Part shown: positions 56,416 to 64,000 of the stretch, piece by piece
Numbering within the stretch: position 1 is the stretch's first letter
Layout of the letters: every line of letters begins with the position of its first letter
Source: Paludibacteraceae bacterium
Lineage (GTDB): Bacteria; Bacteroidota; Bacteroidia; Bacteroidales; Paludibacteraceae
NCBI GenBank assembly: GCA_017962085.1
Contig: JAGCWA010000005.1
Location: 1 to 64,000 of the forward strand
Direction: 5' to 3'
Length of the DNA stretch: 64,000 nt
Position numbers and translations under genes: made by a program
The notes under the pieces: generated by a model
Database searches by the model: none
What the model saw: only the letters and a program-made list of their open reading frames with translations
What the model was told of the DNA's origin: nothing

Positions 56416-56489
56416 GCGTTCGATTTCACGTCCGTTGATTGTAGACGATGTGTACATCGTCTCTTCGTGTATGTATGTTGTTTGTTCGT

Positions 56490-56872
56490 GCATGACCCAG
56501 GTTGTTACCCTGGGCTAGGTAATGAAAGGCCCTTTCAGGGTGGACGTGTGGCGCATCCATTGGGCATTTGTTATATACCCGCATATGACGGTGTCGGAAT
56601 GCCCCGTAGGGGCACCCCTTTATATAGCCCAGGGCAACACCCTGGGTGGATGGCATGTTATAGGGGAAATGCGCCCTGTAAGGGGCAAAAGGTTTTGTTT
56701 AGGGAAAGCCCTTTCATGGCGGACGTGTGGCGCATCCATTGGGCATTTGTTATATACCCGCATATGACGGTGCTGGAATGCCCCGTAGGGGCACCCCTTT
56801 ATATAGCCCAGGGCAACACCTTGGGTGGATGGCATGTTATAGGGGAAGTGCGCCCTGTAAGGGCAAAAGGTT
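56490..56872. repeat. REP-like repeat array left of the RAYT gene
   Basis: Two tandem units of 179 bp (ggacgtgtggcgcatccatt at 56542 and 56721). Each joins hairpins of the types gccctttcagggt, gccccgtaggggc and tagcccagggcaacaccctggg. The array starts with cccaggttgttaccctggg. Confidence 0.85.
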
Positions 56873-56989
56873 TAGTTGAAGGAAATACGAAAACATACCG
56901 CTCGTGAATTCTACCCCCCCAACCCGTTGATGCTACTGTTTCGTTTGACGCTACGACATATGCGTTAGGACATCGTCTATGTGACGTTT

Positions 56990-57445
56990 TCAATCTGAAA
57001 ACAGATACTGTTCATTATATTCAATGCGATATAATTCTAGGAATCGCAAATATTCTTCCCTAAAAGATAGACTTTGATGATGCATTCTTTGGTTTCGTAC
57101 ATACTCAATCGTTTTATCTATAACGGATTGACTGACGGAGAAAGCTCCATACCCGCCTTGCCATGCGAAGTCCTTGTACCGCAAAGATGTTGTTTTTATC
57201 CATCGACTGCTCTTTCGCTTCACTTCCTCCACGAGGTGTGCAACACTCTCTTTTCGCGACATTGAACATACTATGTGGACATGATCACCCACTCCACCAA
57301 CCTGAATGGCAAAGCATCCGGTGGAATCTACTAATCGTCTGATGTATGAATGAACTCGTTTAAGATCCGCATCGTTGATGTTTGGACTACTTGTTTTAAC
57401 GTGGAAAACAATGTGCAGATAAATTTTACATAATGACTGGGACAT
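56990..57445 (-). mobile_element. REP-associated tyrosine transposase (RAYT, IS200/Y1-like)
   Basis: 151 residues, starting at MSQSLCKIYLHIVFHVK. The HUH metal motif is GDHVHIV (about 58-64), and the catalytic Tyr lies in the C-terminal helix IEYVRNQRMHHQ, the usual Y-(I/V)-x-N-Q pattern of this family. It nicks and rejoins single-stranded DNA. RAYTs are single-copy host genes thought to have spread short palindromic repeats; here the palindromic arrays lie on both sides, within about 120 and 180 bases. The longer frame to 57484 adds 13 residues without homology. The gene is AT-richer than the repeats. Confidence 0.88.
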
Positions 57446-57484
57446 GATATAATTTTTTTTGCCCTTATATGGTGCGTTTAACAT

Positions 57485-57620
57485 CCATTTGTTTCCACCT
57501 GGATTGGTTTATTATTTTCTTTTGCAGGTGGACTTTATGTGCAAAAATAACGCTTTTTATATTATATTCCAAATGATTTTAATGTGATTTTTACATTTTT
57601 AATGATTGTTTATGGGGGGG
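57485..57620. other. AT-rich spacer upstream of the RAYT gene
   Basis: No gene seen; probably the RAYT promoter region. It ends in a run of nine G before the right-hand repeat array. Confidence 0.4.
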
Positions 57621-57623
57621 GGT

Positions 57624-58125
57624 ATGCCCTTACAGGGCGTTCGTTCGTTAATTGTTCGTGCGTGACCCAGGGTGTTGCCCTGGGCTAGGTAATGAAATGC
57701 CCTTTCAGGGCAGACGTGTGGCGCATTTATTGGGTATTTGTTATATACCCGCATATGACGGTGCCGAAATGCCCCGTATTGTCCTTATGCCCTTACAGGG
57801 CGTTCGTTCGTTAATTGTTCGTGCGTGACCCAGGGTGTTGCCCTGGGCTAGGTAATGAAATGCCCTTACAGGGCAGACATGTGGTGCATCCATTGGGCAT
57901 TTGTTATATACCCGCATATGACGGTGTCGGAATGCCCCGTAGGGGCACCCCTTTATATAGCCCAGGGCAACACCCTGGGTGGATGGCATGTTATAGGGGA
58001 AATGCGCCCTGAAGGGGCAAAAGGTTTTGTTTAGGGAAAGCCCTTTCAGGGCGGACGTGTAGCGCATTTATTGGTATTTGCCACATTCGCACGTGATGAT
58101 GCCGAAATGCCCCGTAGGGGCAACA
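57624..58125. repeat. REP-like repeat array right of the RAYT gene
   Basis: Units begin at 57629 and 57790 (gcccttacagggcgttcgtt), 161 bp apart; the first is cut short after gccccgta. A third, diverged piece runs 58031-58125. Modules are in the same orientation as in the left array. Confidence 0.85.
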
Positions 58126-58165
58126 CATTTTTCTTCCACCTACCTCTCCATTCTCCATTTTTTTA

Positions 58166-58173
58166 TATCTTTG
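58166..58173 (+). promoter_or_regulatory. Promoter -7 box before the methyltransferase leader RNA
   Basis: TATCTTTG. No good -33 is visible. A start near 58180 would give a leader of about 310 bases. Confidence 0.55.
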
Positions 58174-58259
58174 AACGTTTAATAAAATTTTTTTTACGAA
58201 ACAGACAGTAGGAAGTTTTAAATATTAACATACAGCATTAGCTATTATTCTTGTCCAAA

Positions 58260-58488
58260 TCAAAAGCCTGCAAACTGATGATTTAGAATTATCGGATATA
58301 CGCTAATCCACGGGAAGCCATGCGCTCTCGTATCACTGCTTAGAGTTGATGCTCATACCGTTAAGGTGTGGGCTAATCTAGCAGTGATGCGGGGTTCTTG
58401 CAGGCTCCTCGTGGACAAGATGGAAAGGCTCACACCTTTCTTTTGCCCGATTGTGAGATTGATAGTGATGCGCAAACTATCAATCAGT
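58260..58488 (+). ncRNA. Candidate structured leader RNA with alternative pairings
   Basis: Outer stem agcctgcaa/ttgcaggct (58265-58273 with 58398-58406) encloses a long stem (58328-58343 with 58377-58392; core atcactgct/agcagtgat). The loop of that stem, aaggtgtgggc (58363-58373), can pair over 11 bases with gctcacacctt (58428-58438), outside the outer stem: a pseudoknot. Part of the latter, ctcaca (58429-58434), can instead pair with tgtgag (58452-58457). A hairpin ttgatagt/actatcaa (58459-58466 with 58476-58483) ends 5 bases before the start codon. I do not recognise the fold as a known class. Confidence 0.6.
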
Positions 58489-59559
58489 ATGGCAGGAAAT
58501 AAGAATCTCAATCAGGCTAAAATTGCCAAGAAAGATGAATTTTATACGCAACTTGTTGACATTGAAAACGAATTGAAGCACTACAAACAACACTTCAAGG
58601 ATAAAGTGGTGCTCTGTAACTGTGATGACCCTCGCATCAGCAATTTCTTTCACTATTTCAGCTACAATTTCGAGCAATTAGGCTTGAAGAAACTTATTAC
58701 TACTTGCTATAAAAGTCAAGAGCGTGATTTGTTTAGTCAAAACAACTCAGAGCGTGCCATTTGGCTTGAATATACGGGTGACCATAACGGCAATCGTGTA
58801 CCAGACCCTGAAGAAATAGGCATCAACTATCTTAAGGGTGATGGTGATTTCCGCTCACAGGAATGCATCGAACTGTTAAAGCAAGCGGATATTGTAGTGA
58901 CCAACCCTCCTTTTTCGCTGTTTAGAGAGTACGTGGCACAATTGATGAAATACAACAAGAAATTTGTGATTATTGGAAATCAGAATGCATTACACTATAA
59001 GGAAATTTTTCCGTTAATAAAGGATAATCTGCTTTGGATTGGGTACAATTCCCCTAAGCTATTTCAGATACCATACGATTTTGAAAGCAAATCGATAAAA
59101 ATTCGAGAAGGTATTCGTTATCAACAGTTTGGAAACATAATCTGGTATACAAATCTTGATATAGCAAAGCGTCATGAAGAATTAATTCTCTATAAATCAT
59201 ACAATTCTGAAGAGTATCCTTGTTATGAAAATTTTGATGCTATAGATATTACTGCTGTAAATGAAATTCCTTATGACTTTTATGGAGTAATGGGAGTTCC
59301 AGATTCATTTCTCGAACAATATAATCCAGAACAATTTGAATTGATAGGTGTAGGAAGTGGAACAATGGCGGCAAGTATTGGCGTGAAGAAAAATTATAGA
59401 GGCAGAACTGACATAGCATTAAACATCAATGGTGAGCATAAATGTCCATATTCTCGTATCCTCATCCGTCGTCGTCAGCCAAACAAAAAAGAATACCCAC
59501 TATTCGACCAACAACCGAACATGGCGGCAGAAGGCACGGAAGAGTATGGAAAGAAGTGA
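58489..59559 (+). CDS. EcoRI-family adenine-specific DNA methyltransferase, orphan
   Basis: 356 residues. The start MAGNKNLNQAKIAKKDEFYTQ and the body match EcoRI-type N6-adenine methyltransferases: DEFYTQLVDIENEL, FKDKVVLCNCDDPRISNFFHYF, catalytic motif IV NPPFS near 140, VIIGNQNALHYKEIFPLI. Likely target GAATTC, by family only. The frame is open from 58366, but that extension is the structured leader; the family start is at 58489. No endonuclease of the EcoRI type lies beside it, so it is orphan or works with the HNH gene at 60647. The gene is clearly AT-richer than the housekeeping genes, a sign of transfer. Confidence 0.9.
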   Translation: MAGNKNLNQAKIAKKDEFYTQLVDIENELKHYKQHFKDKVVLCNCDDPRISNFFHYFSYNFEQLGLKKLITTCYKSQERDLFSQNNSERAIWLEYTGDHNGNRVPDPEEIGINYLKGDGDFRSQECIELLKQADIVVTNPPFSLFREYVAQLMKYNKKFVIIGNQNALHYKEIFPLIKDNLLWIGYNSPKLFQIPYDFESKSIKIREGIRYQQFGNIIWYTNLDIAKRHEELILYKSYNSEEYPCYENFDAIDITAVNEIPYDFYGVMGVPDSFLEQYNPEQFELIGVGSGTMAASIGVKKNYRGRTDIALNINGEHKCPYSRILIRRRQPNKKEYPLFDQQPNMAAEGTEEYGKK

Positions 59560-59668
59560 TATTATTCCGAAAAATCACATAATCGGAATAATATAACGGT
59601 GATTTTGGTGAAAATCGGAATAATATAATACCTTTGTAGTGGTTTTATATCATAAATCGGAATAATAT
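59559..59668 (+). promoter_or_regulatory. Operator-like repeats at the fic promoter
   Basis: TCGGAATAATAT occurs at 59583-59594, 59615-59626 and 59657-59668, with a perfect inverted copy at 59559-59570 that overlaps the methyltransferase stop codon. Copy 2 sits between the -33 and -7 boxes of fic; copy 3 overlaps the fic start codon. The first pair is also a 12-bp palindrome with a 12-base loop. Confidence 0.8.
59604..59636 (+). promoter_or_regulatory. fic promoter
   Basis: TTTG at 59604-59607 and TACCTTTG at 59629-59636, spacer 21; start codon 30 bases later. Confidence 0.8.
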
Positions 59669-60596
59669 GGAAGGTTATATGAAAATCACAGAAGCGGCTG
59701 AAAGGTGGGGGCTATCCTCCCGCCGCATAAGGGTATTATGCTCCGATGGCAGAATCCCGGGCGTAATCCGCAAGGGAAATCTCTATTACATTCCTGCTAA
59801 TGCCACACAACCTGTGGACGCACGATCTTATAGCAAACGGGCAGACAAGAAAGTGTACACGCCACTACTGATGGAGGTGGATGCGCTGCAAAAAAAATTG
59901 GCAGACATGCGACCTCTCTCCCCTGCGGAAGTGGAAGCACTCAGAGAGGTCTTCGTGGTGGAACATACCTACAACAGTAATGCTATTGAGGGAAACACCC
60001 TTACCTTGCAAGAGACTGCCATGGTGCTGCAGGGAATGACCATCGACCGAAAACCTTTGAAAGACCACCTTGAGGCTGTGGGTTACAAGGAGGCTTTCGA
60101 GGCAATGGAGGAACTGACAAAGCAAAAACGTCCTTTGTCAGAGTACGACATACATTGCATCCATTCGCTGGTGCTTGCCCACCGACACGAGGATGCGGGA
60201 CGATACAGAAGAGTGCCCGTCCGTATAGCTGGCGCTCTGACCGAACCCGTACAACCCTACTTGATTCAACCCAAAATGGAAGAATTAATCACCGACATGG
60301 AGGAAAAGTATGGCAAGTTGCATATCGCTGAGCAAGTGTCGCTTTTCCATCTACGGTTCGAAAGCATACACCCCTTCATTGACGGCAACGGACGCACTGG
60401 TCGTCTGCTTATGAACCTGCAACTCATCCGAGCAGGCTATCCGCCTGTGAATATAAAGTTCGCCGACCGTCGCCGCTACTACGAGGCATTCGATAGTTTC
60501 GCACGAAGTGGGTCGCCCGACGATATGATAACACTCGTGGCGGAATATCTCAGGGAAAGGCTTAACGCAGTGCTGGAGATACAGAATAGCATTTAA
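59667..60596 (+). CDS. Fic-family protein with N-terminal DNA-binding domain
   Basis: 309 residues. Residues 5-50 are a MerR/excisionase-like helix-turn-helix (ITEAAERWGLSSRRIRVLCSDGRIPG). A linker and the inhibitory helix motif SNAIEGN (about 103-109) follow, then the Fic core with HPFIDGNGRTGR (about 234-245) complete for AMP transfer to a protein hydroxyl. The S-x-x-x-E-G-N motif before the core marks the self-inhibited class in which Glu blocks ATP. The target is unknown. Repeated sites over its own promoter suggest that its N-terminal domain represses fic. It lies between the methyltransferase and the HNH gene, all on the same strand. GC content is higher than that of the methyltransferase. 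Confidence 0.9.
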   Translation: MEGYMKITEAAERWGLSSRRIRVLCSDGRIPGVIRKGNLYYIPANATQPVDARSYSKRADKKVYTPLLMEVDALQKKLADMRPLSPAEVEALREVFVVEHTYNSNAIEGNTLTLQETAMVLQGMTIDRKPLKDHLEAVGYKEAFEAMEELTKQKRPLSEYDIHCIHSLVLAHRHEDAGRYRRVPVRIAGALTEPVQPYLIQPKMEELITDMEEKYGKLHIAEQVSLFHLRFESIHPFIDGNGRTGRLLMNLQLIRAGYPPVNIKFADRRRYYEAFDSFARSGSPDDMITLVAEYLRERLNAVLEIQNSI

Positions 60597-60646
60597 TAGA
60601 GTTGAACTAAAATATTATTTCAATTACGATATAAAACCCAAGCTAT

Positions 60647-61729
60647 ATGGAAATCAAATTGCATAAAATAACAGTCCGCGACCTGACCAATGGGTATGCG
60701 GACAATGCGGAACAAGGTGTGAAGGCTTTTGGCGGCAAGCTGGATGTGCGTCCGCCTTACCAACGGGAGTTCGTCTATGGCGATAAACAACGTGCCGCCG
60801 TTATCGACACCCTCACGCAGGGCTTTCCCCTCAATGTGATGTACTGGGCGACACGCGACGATGGCACGTTCGAGATCATCGACGGACAACAACGTACCAT
60901 CTCCATCTGCCAATATGTGAACGGCGACTTCGCCTATCTCTTCAAGTATTTCCATAACCTGCAGGAAGACGAAAAGGAGCAGATTCTCAATTACGAATTG
61001 CAAGTGTATATCTGTAGTGGCACCGACAGCGAGAAACTGAAATGGTTCGAGACCATCAACATAGCGGGCGAGAAACTGACCGAGCAGGAGCTGCGCAATG
61101 CGGTCTATGCTGGCAGTTGGGTGAGTGATGCAAAGCGTTATTTCAGCAAAAGCAACTGTGCTGCTTACGGGTTGGCGAGCAAGTACGTGAGCGGTTCGCC
61201 CATCCGCCAAGACTACCTCGAAACAGCCATCCGCTGGATCTCCAAAGGGAACATCGAGGTCTATATGGGCAACCACCAGCACGACCCTAACGCAGTCGCA
61301 CTCTGGAATCACTTCAGCAGTGTCATCAACTGGGTGAAGGCCCTCTTCCCCAAATACCGCAAAGAGATGAAGGGCGTGGATTGGGGAACGCTGTACGAAA
61401 AATTCAAGGAGCAGTCGTTGGATGCTACTGCGTTGGAAGAAAAGGTAACGAAACTGATGATGGACAGTGATGTGCAGAAAAAGTCGGGCATCTACGCCTA
61501 CGTATTAGACGGCGACGAGCACCACCTGGGCATCCGTGCCTTCGACGACAACACGAAACGAGAGGTCTATGAGCGTCAGCAAGGCATCTGCAAAATCTGT
61601 GGCAAGCATTTCGACATAGAGCAAATGGAGGCCGACCACATCACCCCATGGAAAGAGGGCGGTCGCACCATCGCCGAGAATTGCCAGATGTTGTGTAGGG
61701 AATGTAATCGACGGAAGAGTGATAAATGA
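60647..61729 (+). CDS. DUF262 domain protein with C-terminal HNH nuclease
   Basis: 360 residues. The N-terminal DUF262 (ParB/GmrS-like) domain has QREFVYGDKQRAAVIDTLTQGFPL and the nucleotide-binding DGQQRTIS (about 79-86). A helical middle follows, then a C-terminal HNH (about 310-358) with CKICG, EADHITPWKEGG and CQMLCRECN: two Cys pairs and the His/Asn residues of a zinc-held HNH. DUF262-nuclease proteins such as GmrSD and BrxU restrict phage with modified DNA; that role is inferred. It starts 50 bases after fic. A copy of its last 40 bases reappears at 63962. Confidence 0.9.
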   Translation: MEIKLHKITVRDLTNGYADNAEQGVKAFGGKLDVRPPYQREFVYGDKQRAAVIDTLTQGFPLNVMYWATRDDGTFEIIDGQQRTISICQYVNGDFAYLFKYFHNLQEDEKEQILNYELQVYICSGTDSEKLKWFETINIAGEKLTEQELRNAVYAGSWVSDAKRYFSKSNCAAYGLASKYVSGSPIRQDYLETAIRWISKGNIEVYMGNHQHDPNAVALWNHFSSVINWVKALFPKYRKEMKGVDWGTLYEKFKEQSLDATALEEKVTKLMMDSDVQKKSGIYAYVLDGDEHHLGIRAFDDNTKREVYERQQGICKICGKHFDIEQMEADHITPWKEGGRTIAENCQMLCRECNRRKSDK

Positions 61730-61740
61730 TAGATAAAACA

Positions 61741-61772
61741 GTCGCCACGCATTCTCGATGAATCGTGGCGAC
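61741..61772 (+). terminator. Hairpin after the HNH gene
   Basis: Nine-pair stem gtcgccacg/cgtggcgac (61741-61749 with 61764-61772) with inner pairs attc/gaat. No strong T-run follows, so termination is likely but not certain. Confidence 0.5.
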
Positions 61773-61869
61773 CACTCTCGTTTATAGAAGCATAGATTTT
61801 TCCTAGTGTGATTCCGTATGTTTATTACTGAGATTTATTCTGTAAATTTATTAACTAAGAGTTAGACCA

Positions 61870-63840
61870 TCATTGTCCGAATTTATCATCGAAATAATAT
61901 CCAAGACTTTGTTTGTTGGCGATGCAATGCGCGTAGGGTCCCAGTTTTTTGCGAAGTCGGGTGATGTTCACATCGACAGTACGTCCGGTAACCACCACAC
62001 CCGTCCAGACTTTCTCCATGAGTTGCTGACGGGAGCAGATGGAGCCTCTGCAAGATAGAAGTTCGTAAAGTAAATTGAACTCCGTGAGCGTGAGATTAAT
62101 AGGTTCCCCATCAATATAAACCTCTTTCTTGTCGCAATCCATGTGTAATCCGCGGAAGAAGATGTGACGTCTTCCTATTCGTGCTTCTAGTATGTTAATG
62201 ATATAATCACCTATTTTTTCGCAACTGGCGATAATGTCGGTACAGAGTGTTGTGACGATGTAAGAGTCTCTCTTTGTATTCACATTGGTGATGTTATCGT
62301 TTTTTATTTTATCTCGCAACGCATTGATGTCGTTTTCAATCTCTAACGAAGGTTCAATGGTTACGTTTTCTCGTCTTCCGTTCATGACAACCATCATCTG
62401 AGTGATGGCTTCGTTTACAAGATGCATCATTTCGTGCATATATTCGTACTGTTGTAGAGAGAAATCTTCGTCAAGTTCATTTCGTTGATGAATGGTTTGT
62501 GAAATCTTCCGACATGAGTCACCGATAGATTCCAATTCTCCTATCATACGTAGCATGGAACGTATTTTCCCCTTTGTGTCGTCAGACAATCGTTCATTGC
62601 TCACCTTCTCCAAATAGGAGGCGATTTCTATTTCCATGCGGTCGGCTATTTCTTCGTATTTGCAGATTCGCTCGTGTTGACGTTCGATCTCTTTTTTTTC
62701 CTTTTCATCGAGCAAACTCCTCACCATGCCAAACATACGTTGCATACGTTCGGCAAAGTGTATCACCTCTTTTTGCGCTTGAAGTACAGAGATTTCAGGT
62801 GTTGTCATGAGTCCTCCGTTGATGAAATGCAGCGTGACAGGTTGTCGTTCTTTCTCGCTTGTCTCAGGCAAAAGGCGACAGACAATTCGTTCTATCTGAG
62901 AAACGAAAGGCAATAGGATGGATGTGTTGATTAGGTTGAAGCAGGTATGGAACATGGCCAGTACAACGGGAAGTCGCGCTACCTGTCCAGATGCTTCAGG
63001 ATCATAGTTGACCAGCCAGCAGACCATATTGACGAATGGGTAGAACACACATAAAACCCAGAAAACACCGAACACATTGAACAGTAAGTGAGCTAAGGCT
63101 GCTCTTCTCGCAGGAATGCCCGCTCCCATAGCAGCAAGATTAGCTGTCGCCGTGGTGCCAATATTCTCGCCCATTACCAGTGCTATGCCAAGGTGGATGG
63201 GGAGGACCCCCGTGGAGCAGAGCAAGATGGTGATGGCCATCACAGCAGCCGATGATTGCACAACACATGTTATCAGGGTGCCGACAAAGAGAAAAATGAG
63301 AATGGTGAAATGACTGCTTGTGTCGAATGACGAAAAGAAAGCCACTACACTTGCGTTGTGCTCCAGATCCATGCTTTTTCCTGTGGAGTTGAGCATCACC
63401 AACGACCAGAATAGAAAAGCTATTCCGAATAAAAAATCACCAGCCACACGATGTTTCTTTTTGTAGATGAGCAACATACCCAACATAAAAGCGGGGAAGA
63501 CAACATTCGACAGATCCACATTGTATCCTAATGACATGATCCAAGCGGTAAGCGTAGTACCAATATTAGCTCCCATGATGATGCTGATGGCCTGTGTCAG
63601 CGTCAGAAGACCCGCAGAAACAAACGAAACAGTCATAACAGTGGTTGCCGAAGAGGATTGTACGGCACACGTCACAAACATACCAGTGAGCATACCTGAA
63701 ATACGGTTGGATGTCATTCTTGCTAATATATGGCGCAACCCTGGTCCAGCCATCTTTTGCAACGCTTCGCTCATTATCTTCATTCCATAGATAAGCAAAG
63801 CAAGAGATCCCAAAAGCTTTATAACGATTCCTATAGTCAT
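61870..63840 (-). CDS. Na/phosphate cotransporter-PhoU protein fused to an OmpR-type DNA-binding domain
   Basis: 656 residues from the start MTIGIVIKLLGS. Two inverted Na/Pi-cotransporter repeats each hold a QSS motif (CAVQSSSATTV near 61-68; CVVQSSAAVMA near 205). PhoU-like helices cover about 345-550. The last 100 residues are a full winged-helix domain of OmpR/PhoB type: LTLTEFNLLYELLSCRGS, SRQQLMEKVW, GRTVDVNITRLRKKLG, LGYYF. The frame is unbroken. The C-terminus should be cytoplasmic and free to meet DNA. The function is inferred: phosphate-coupled transport or sensing joined to gene control. The frame is open to 63867, but a TAATTTTG box at 63865-63872 (minus) favours 63840. Confidence 0.85.
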   Translation of the reverse strand: MTIGIVIKLLGSLALLIYGMKIMSEALQKMAGPGLRHILARMTSNRISGMLTGMFVTCAVQSSSATTVMTVSFVSAGLLTLTQAISIIMGANIGTTLTAWIMSLGYNVDLSNVVFPAFMLGMLLIYKKKHRVAGDFLFGIAFLFWSLVMLNSTGKSMDLEHNASVVAFFSSFDTSSHFTILIFLFVGTLITCVVQSSAAVMAITILLCSTGVLPIHLGIALVMGENIGTTATANLAAMGAGIPARRAALAHLLFNVFGVFWVLCVFYPFVNMVCWLVNYDPEASGQVARLPVVLAMFHTCFNLINTSILLPFVSQIERIVCRLLPETSEKERQPVTLHFINGGLMTTPEISVLQAQKEVIHFAERMQRMFGMVRSLLDEKEKKEIERQHERICKYEEIADRMEIEIASYLEKVSNERLSDDTKGKIRSMLRMIGELESIGDSCRKISQTIHQRNELDEDFSLQQYEYMHEMMHLVNEAITQMMVVMNGRRENVTIEPSLEIENDINALRDKIKNDNITNVNTKRDSYIVTTLCTDIIASCEKIGDYIINILEARIGRRHIFFRGLHMDCDKKEVYIDGEPINLTLTEFNLLYELLSCRGSICSRQQLMEKVWTGVVVTGRTVDVNITRLRKKLGPYAHCIANKQSLGYYFDDKFGQ

Positions 63841-63864
63841 GATTCCATTTATTGCATGATGATA

Positions 63865-63872
63865 CAAAATTA
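63865..63872 (-). promoter_or_regulatory. -7 box of the transporter-regulator gene
   Basis: TAATTTTG on the minus strand; no clear -33 at 19-21 bases. Confidence 0.45.
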
Positions 63873-63961
63873 AGATGAAGTGACCATAATCGGGAAAAAG
63901 TAGGTGTTACAAATCGGTTACAATTAGCATAAATAAACGTATCGTTAAATTCCCTTCAACA

Positions 63962-64000
63962 CATTGCCGAGAATTGCCAGATGTTGTGCAGGGAGTGCAA
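63962..64000 (+). pseudogene. Fragment of an HNH gene, cut by the window end
   Basis: attgccgagaattgccagat and what follows match 61670-61708, the end of the DUF262-HNH gene, with only a few changes, and keep the frame IAENCQMLCREC. The bases before 63962 do not resemble the HNH gene, so this is a partial copy (or the tail of a different HNH gene joined to other sequence). Confidence 0.65.

Follow-up and report, generated by a model that had tools for sequence, protein, structure and literature searches.

A sodium/phosphate cotransporter joined through PhoU to a PhoB-type winged helix, with a Pho-box-like repeat before its gene: a candidate phosphate regulator in a single chain

In a 64,000-nucleotide stretch of contig JAGCWA010000005.1 from a Paludibacteraceae bacterium (assembly GCA_017962085.1; this whole stretch is called the window below), one open frame encodes a Na/Pi cotransporter, a PhoU domain and a complete PhoB-type winged helix, and its promoter carries a Pho-box-like direct repeat which recurs before related genes. 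We consider it fairly probable that the protein acts as a kinase-free, membrane-anchored one-component phosphate regulator, built into a transporter and working mainly on its own gene. How PhoU passes a signal from a phosphate transporter to PhoR/PhoB is an old open question; here PhoU is apparently wired directly to a PhoB DNA-binding domain, so that its signal would be readable with one protein and one promoter.

One frame encodes transporter, PhoU and winged helix

An earlier note on this DNA had described Na/Pi-cotransporter repeats, PhoU and a complete winged helix in one unbroken frame, which translation and Pfam searches confirmed on the minus strand (Table 1). The frame, of 656 aa, runs from an ATG at 63840 to a stop codon that ends at 61870. 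A TTG at 63867 would give a protein of 665 aa, a less likely start, as it lies inside the predicted -7 element (63865-63872) and as aligned fused homologues start at or beside the preferred ATG. The transporter part has the two repeats of Na/Pi cotransporters (NptA/SLC34), both above the gathering score (PF02690, two stretches, E 6e-55; 185 bits against a cut-off of 29.1) and each with a QSSS-type motif. It also scores above the TIGR00704 cut-off (216.8 against 210.1 bits) and matches SLC34A2 in the PDB by sequence (E 4e-18), and sodium-driven phosphate uptake is predicted. This assignment rests on sequence, because the list of fold comparisons was taken up by PhoU and winged-helix rows. The PhoU domain was recognised by Pfam in two stretches (E 4e-10) and has both a six-helix fold and the E-xxx-D motifs.

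The C-terminal part is a winged helix of the PhoB/OmpR type, matching Trans_reg_C at residues 578-650 over the entire profile (E 2e-17). Its best NCBIfam match is the Bacteroidota PhoB family NF053854, at 95.8 bits, far short of the 270-bit cut-off for want of a receiver half, and no Response_reg domain was found among Pfam matches up to E 1; the fused protein is not a PhoB response regulator. As the NF053854 alignment starts at residue 513, a receiver stub was considered and rejected, since residues 513-555 are the last PhoU helices and unfused homologues align to about residue 559. In the structure model only three residues join PhoU to the winged helix, and the linker between transporter and PhoU (residues 328-346) has low confidence. 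Codon differences in the winged helix against five same-genus copies, which are not independent, are 5/1, 8/1, 3/0, 5/2 and 6/3 (synonymous/nonsynonymous), and the domain looks to be under constraint.

The fusion recurs in diverged genomes

A scan of genome contigs yielded at least 595 relatives, the best 80 of which were kept as loci. Judged by open frame, the gene is fused in 25 of the 80, unfused and followed by a distinct winged-helix regulator gene (operon-type) in 10, and unfused with no regulator gene in the examined stretch in 45. Five of the fused loci (L004-L007 and L012) seem to duplicate contigs already present in the genus set, in which five genomes besides that of the window are fused, and are not to be counted twice, which leaves as independent material 20 diverged fused loci and 6 of the 16 genus genomes. 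The winged helices of the 20 diverged loci are 36-71% identical to that of the window, and the same join was found down to 53% identity, including in Prevotella ruminicola strain KHT3 (L013), whose title has no mark of a metagenome-assembled genome (MAG). The titles of the other fused loci name mostly MAGs from the rumen or other ruminant guts; many Bacteroidales genomes, for the most part of rumen origin, thus carry the fusion. That most copies come from MAGs is what would speak for an assembly or sequencing error joining two genes, the condition under which the earlier note would have withdrawn its claim; with the identical join in 25 of 80 kept loci, 20 of them diverged, we give such an artefact next to no chance and have rejected it.

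The lack of a receiver domain, and of a separate PhoB-like gene alongside, was borne out as well. No separate frame matching the winged helix at E 1e-4 was found in any of the 25 fused loci, some of which have short flanks. Full-length fusion matches are rare in wider samples, with 2 of 393 genomes at order level (among matches to E 1e-240) and 1 of 395 at phylum level (to E 1e-90), and only the six genus genomes appear among the matches listed for 300 genomes of the family. Relatives were found in 115 plasmid records, none at 60% identity or more; among eight plasmid rows listed, seven stop by residue 559 and the match in Enterococcus gilvus (30% identity) extends to 605.

In order to follow the origin of the fusion, a tree of the transporter-PhoU part was built with Shimodaira-Hasegawa-like branch support (SH-aLRT), near-copies or partial sequences being omitted (L084-L088, L005, L006 and L108). 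Seventeen fused proteins form one clade (99), whose sister group holds eight operon-type and two lone transporters (98; joint support 99). Outside this main fused clade stand L020 and L022 together with L035, and L030, L048, L059 and L065. A single origin of all fused genes was rejected for the transporter part by the approximately unbiased test (p-AU 5e-6; 47 rows, all fused ones held together; L104, L018, L019, L021, L012, L004 and most lone unfused rows further omitted), and three or more independent fusion events therefore appear to have taken place, provided that winged helices were not swapped afterwards.

Among the operon-type loci, confirmation of a kinase covered L024, L038, L040, L066 and L041. 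The order in L024 is transporter, regulator (with receiver and Trans_reg_C domains), HisKA-HATPase kinase; the frame after the regulator is likewise a HisKA-HATPase kinase in L038, L040 and L066, and in L041 lies on the opposite strand with no family match. In L029 the regulator gene stands about 0.6 kb downstream of the transporter, with a small reverse frame between. Two tandem Na/Pi-PhoU transporter genes were observed in L023, L029, L039 and L054, with the regulator gene next in the last three. Fused loci are not entirely free of kinases nearby: Cache-domain proteins, one of them a kinase, lie downstream in L045, and candidate frames on the opposite strand in L005, L011 and L014 belong to the same large BLAST cluster.

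PhoB is rare in fused genomes

Counting proteins above the curated NF053854 cut-off, PhoB is rare in genomes with the fused gene (2/26), being found in 2 of 20 diverged fused genomes and in none of the six of the genus. Among the other unfused genomes it was present in 24 of 43 distinct ones (26 of 45 rows before two repeats of operon-type genomes are set aside), in 3 of the 10 unfused genus genomes, numbers too small for a comparison within the genus, and in all ten operon-type genomes, a sample chosen for regulator presence. Fisher's test gave p 0.0007 for 2/20 against 24/43 and p 0.00014 with the genus added (2/26 against 27/53), both uncorrected for kinship and for missing MAG pieces. Neither PhoB nor PstC was found above curated cut-offs in the assembly of the window (97% complete, 3.37 Mb). 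PstC above its cut-off occurs in 0 of 16 genus genomes, 4 of 20 diverged fused genomes and 0 of 10 operon-type genomes. The same assembly has an unfused transporter paralogue on contig C45 (49% identity); no search was made for Pit-type carriers.

A Pho-box-like repeat recurs before fused, operon-type and some phoB genes

On the gene strand the promoter reads box, 33 bp, -7 element, ATG. The element fits TAnnTTTG, which we take to be the Bacteroidota -7 consensus. The box is the sole match with at most two mismatches in the window; as 0.35 matches are expected there by chance, the case for it rests on recurrence. We therefore scored the consensus of the window on the gene strand over 200 bp before the start of other genes (maximum 14), omitting fused copies from the genus itself, the partial L108, and L027, which has 20 bp of upstream sequence. 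A score of at least 12 was reached by 12 of 20 diverged fused genes (10 of 4000 shuffles), with at least 11 in 14 of the 20, among which L017, L018, L019 and L021 are near-copies. The same score was reached by 9 of 14 operon-type genes (shuffles 5/2800), 4 of 45 lone unfused genes (16/9000) and 0 of 14 genus paralogues (8/2800). An exact TAnnTTTG lies 31-33 bp after the best box in 10/20, 10/14, 1/45 and 0/14 of these groups, respectively, and an alignment of promoters anchored at the box shows it and the -7 element as the most clearly conserved blocks. All 14 non-genus members of the main fused clade score at least 11. The fused gene of P. ruminicola KHT3 has a box of 11/14, and that genome has no PhoB above the cut-off.

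Ten phoB loci were examined: L239-L242, picked for a box on the contig, and L243-L248, picked without regard to one. A box of at least 12/14 precedes phoB in L239, L240, L243 and L244; the -7 element follows after 32 bp in the last two, and in L239 and L240 it follows after 52 bp or is not at this place. In L241 and L242 such a box stands before a Na/Pi gene in the same 9 kb, with the -7 element at 32 bp. No box of at least 12/14 was found at the phoB loci L245, L246 and L248, and that of L247 is on the wrong strand relative to phoB and has no -7 element. Because it precedes both phoB and Na/Pi genes, the repeat is probably the Pho box of these bacteria, and a candidate Pho box for Prevotellaceae. 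Its TGTAA, repeated at 11 bp, resembles the TGTCA core of the Escherichia coli Pho box. No such Prevotellaceae consensus was met in the literature consulted, part of which was available as excerpts, and we regard as new the promoter box of the fused gene, recurring before fused, operon-type and some phoB genes. In L240, L242 and L243 the repeat takes the form of three phased 11-bp units.

Across the assembly of the window (G000), exact GTTACANNNNNGTTACA, the box on the opposite strand, occurs once, at the promoter of the fused gene. G003, G004, G013 and G014 likewise have a single copy, located at the fused gene, and G015 has a second copy inside a long frame; the pattern is absent from 8 of the 16 genus genomes, and G005 has one. 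All six fused genus genomes carry the box at the fused gene, and of the ten others only G005 and G010 match the pattern. With at most two mismatches there are nine sites in the assembly of the window, against 34 for the reversed pattern; six of the eight other sites lie inside open frames of at least 100 aa and two outside, none with TAnnTTTG within 60 bp. A many-gene regulon of strong sites was therefore rejected, only the fused gene's own promoter having the -7 element in place; further, weaker targets may exist beside this single strong site. G010, with neither the fusion nor a PhoB above the cut-off, has 11 pattern matches in two clusters of four and seven (G010:C139:61827-62160 and 167228-167857).

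A possible mechanism and its rivals

Trees and operons point to an ancestor in which a Na/Pi cotransporter with a C-terminal PhoU would have signalled to a neighbouring PhoB and its kinase. In the fused lineage PhoU would have gained the PhoB winged helix at its end, with loss of receiver domain and kinase. We infer that PhoU tethers the winged helix to the membrane and that this domain would bind both 11-bp half-sites of the Pho box in the fused gene's promoter. A fall in phosphate flux or level may alter transporter and PhoU so that two winged helices are freed or paired; these would then sit on the box immediately before the promoter and activate the gene, activation being suggested by the position of the box relative to the -7 element; with phosphate plentiful, PhoU would keep the winged helices inactive. 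The earlier note had proposed a kinase-free transceptor controlling genes. The kinase-free part fits the points which could be tested, and the scope has narrowed from a many-gene regulator to a self-regulating transporter gene, since the only strong predicted site is at its own promoter. A further generalisation, to which we give slightly less than an even chance, is that one chain imports phosphate, senses its flux and switches essentially a single gene, its own, and arose repeatedly by collapse of a transporter-PhoU/kinase/PhoB pathway. If so, the number of regulators would equal that of importers by construction and the bound gene would be drawn to the membrane; it would show in nature, more than once, how a two-component pathway can be reduced to one chain, and it could serve as it stands as a phosphate sensor encoded by a single gene.

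Several observations weigh against a kinase-free phosphate regulator of this kind. The structure model has a predicted template-modelling score (pTM) of 0.50, so that the relative placement of the domains is uncertain. Six of the 20 diverged fused genes (L020, L022, L030, L048, L059 and L065) have a box score of 10 or less; all six lie outside the main fused clade, among them a separate clade with more diverged winged helices, and L022 scores 10 with a -7 element at 31 bp. Seven of the 16 genus genomes have neither the fusion nor PhoB, and the function is therefore dispensable. PhoB is still present in two fused genomes, G300 and, above the cut-off only with neighbouring pieces, G301, and the genome of the window has other OmpR-type regulators and hybrid kinases. 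Finally, exact GTTACRNNNNNGTTACR is no more frequent than its reversed control in the 20 fused genomes (37 against 46), nor clearly so in the ten PhoB-bearing operon-type genomes (17 against 16); as even PhoB genomes show no excess, an exact scan would miss a regulon of weaker sites.

The box evidence would be identical if the winged helix were a repressor of its own promoter, or a phosphate-independent anchor there, as the sign of control is unreadable from sequence and an importer's negative feedback on its own gene is plausible. We hold this to be unlikely, though by some way the likeliest of the rivals: the box ends 31-33 bp before the -7 element and does not overlap it, a spacing shared with operon-type genes, where activation by PhoB is expected. 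There is a small chance that the box is bound by one of the several OmpR-type regulators of the genome, for instance G000:C46:71571-72227 (190.6 bits to NF053854, below the cut-off), and that the fused winged helix does something else or acts elsewhere. This C46 regulator is among the matches listed for the box-free genus genomes G001, G007 and G009, its winged helix is far from the fused ones in the tree, and within the genus the box tracks the fused gene, the remaining carriers being G005, a likely scar, and G010, with its clusters elsewhere.

Slightly less probable than binding by another regulator is a winged helix which has lost DNA binding and remains in the transporter only as a structural element or for contact with other proteins. 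Two loci, L059 and L065, do have diverged recognition segments and no box; in the clade of the window (17 fused rows), however, the recognition segment is well kept, and so is the box, as described above. Protease release is known for other membrane regulators, and the low-confidence linker before PhoU could be a site at which a membrane-bound precursor frees PhoU with the winged helix, or the winged helix, as a soluble regulator of several genes. We consider this similarly improbable, as the assembly has no second strong box with a -7 element and as so few residues join PhoU to the winged helix. On balance we favour a winged helix that would activate its own gene from within the transporter.

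Relation to known systems

The winged helix is nearest to PhoB of the PhoR/PhoB pair (E. coli; Bacteroidota NF053854; Bacteroides fragilis PhoB, an activator of pst according to the available part of PMC3547664), and an 11-bp direct-repeat box precedes phosphate genes in both cases, here as a putative binding site; the fused protein differs in having neither a receiver domain nor an attached kinase, transporter-PhoU standing in place of the receiver. The Staphylococcus aureus NptA-type cotransporter likewise has transporter and PhoU in one chain, and its PhoU influences PhoPR-dependent nptA expression, loss of the domain raising expression at intermediate phosphate (PMC13170248, in part). It acts through the separate PhoPR pair, and the available part of that source describes no DNA-binding domain; by the same part, PhoU proteins with extra domains such as Na_Pi_cotrans were excluded from its PhoU sequence set. 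ToxR/CadC-type regulators also place an OmpR-type winged helix in a membrane protein that has no phosphoryl acceptor domain, and CadC works with neither a phosphoryl acceptor nor cleavage (PMC5936718, in part). The resemblance is in working only, since those proteins are bitopic, with an N-terminal winged helix and a periplasmic sensor, whereas here the winged helix is C-terminal and follows a polytopic transporter. In the SLC5/STAC histidine kinases CbrA, CrbS and RpuS a solute symporter is joined to a signalling output, which is a kinase acting on a separate regulator (PMC9100948, in part) and in the fused protein is a DNA-binding domain; Pfam found no SLC5, STAC or kinase domain in the fused protein. 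A search of open-licence papers only, and hence a weak one, found no description of a polytopic transporter with its own DNA-binding domain.

Genomic neighbourhood and movement

Table 1 Features of the fused gene and its surroundings in the window.
Feature	Position	Strand	Basis
Whole fused gene, Na/Pi cotransporter + PhoU + PhoB-type winged helix, 656 aa	61870..63840	-	Open frame, translation, Pfam; same single frame in 25 of 80 kept loci
Transporter part, residues 1-323, QSSS at 61, QSSA at 195	62872..63840	-	Two Na_Pi_cotrans stretches, PDB sequence match to SLC34A2, model helices
PhoU domain, residues 348-555, E-xxx-D motifs at 396, 437 and 541	62176..62799	-	
PhoB/OmpR-type winged helix, residues 559-650	61891..62166	-	
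Pho-box-like 11-bp direct repeat TTGTAACCGATTTGTAAC (TTGTAAC-N4-TTGTAAC), about 66-83 bp before the ATG	63906..63923	-	Recurrence before other fused genes
Predicted -7 element TAATTTTG, 33 bp after the box	63865..63872	-	Fits TAnnTTTG
GmrSD-N/HNH gene, shared between species together with the fused gene	60647..61729	+	Pfam; shared block about 60630-64010
3' end of the HNH gene, with an 87% repeat of 68 bp beyond the fused gene	61669..61736	+	blastn
Second repeat copy, extending beyond the window to contig position 64029; the shared block ends inside it at 64010	63962..64000	+	blastn

The DNA of the fused gene is 97.6-98.0% identical between the window and the five other genus genomes. The unfused paralogue is 96.5% identical in G013 and 95.8% in G003, and only 70-72% in G014, G004 and G015. 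With G015 and G004 the window shares a block of about 60630-64010, comprising the HNH and fused genes (96.1% and 93.9%), and with G014 positions 61514-64010 (97.0%), where the match is ended by the contig end of G014; with G013 and G003 it shares about 59510-61790 and 61869-63944 (95.6-97.9%), with no match found beyond. Because the fused gene and the shared block are near-identical where the paralogue is only 70-72% identical, the HNH and fused-gene block has probably moved between species; a less probable alternative is wrong binning of the small contigs (5.3 kb in G015, 15.2 kb in G014). The methylase gene at 58163-59346 has 74-82% identity in all four genomes compared, and as close relatives are included its drop is not diagnostic alone. 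A composite transposon was rejected, as the flanking genes of L004 and L012 match leucine-rich repeat (LRR) or sorting-tail models and not transposases. In G005 the region from 63845 on, with promoter and box, is kept at 95%, no fused gene was found, and a frame judged transposase-like from its sequence lies alongside; this is probably a deletion scar of the fused gene.

Positions 58366-61729 beside the fused gene encode an EcoRI-type adenine methylase, a Fic protein with HTH_17 and the GmrSD-N/HNH endonuclease (Pfam), a defence-island-like setting which is variable among close relatives. At 56477-58129 a repeat of about 237 nt occurs four times and a 42-nt core five times, with an inverted-looking GCCCCGTAGGGGC; the open frames there look like translated repeats rather than genes.
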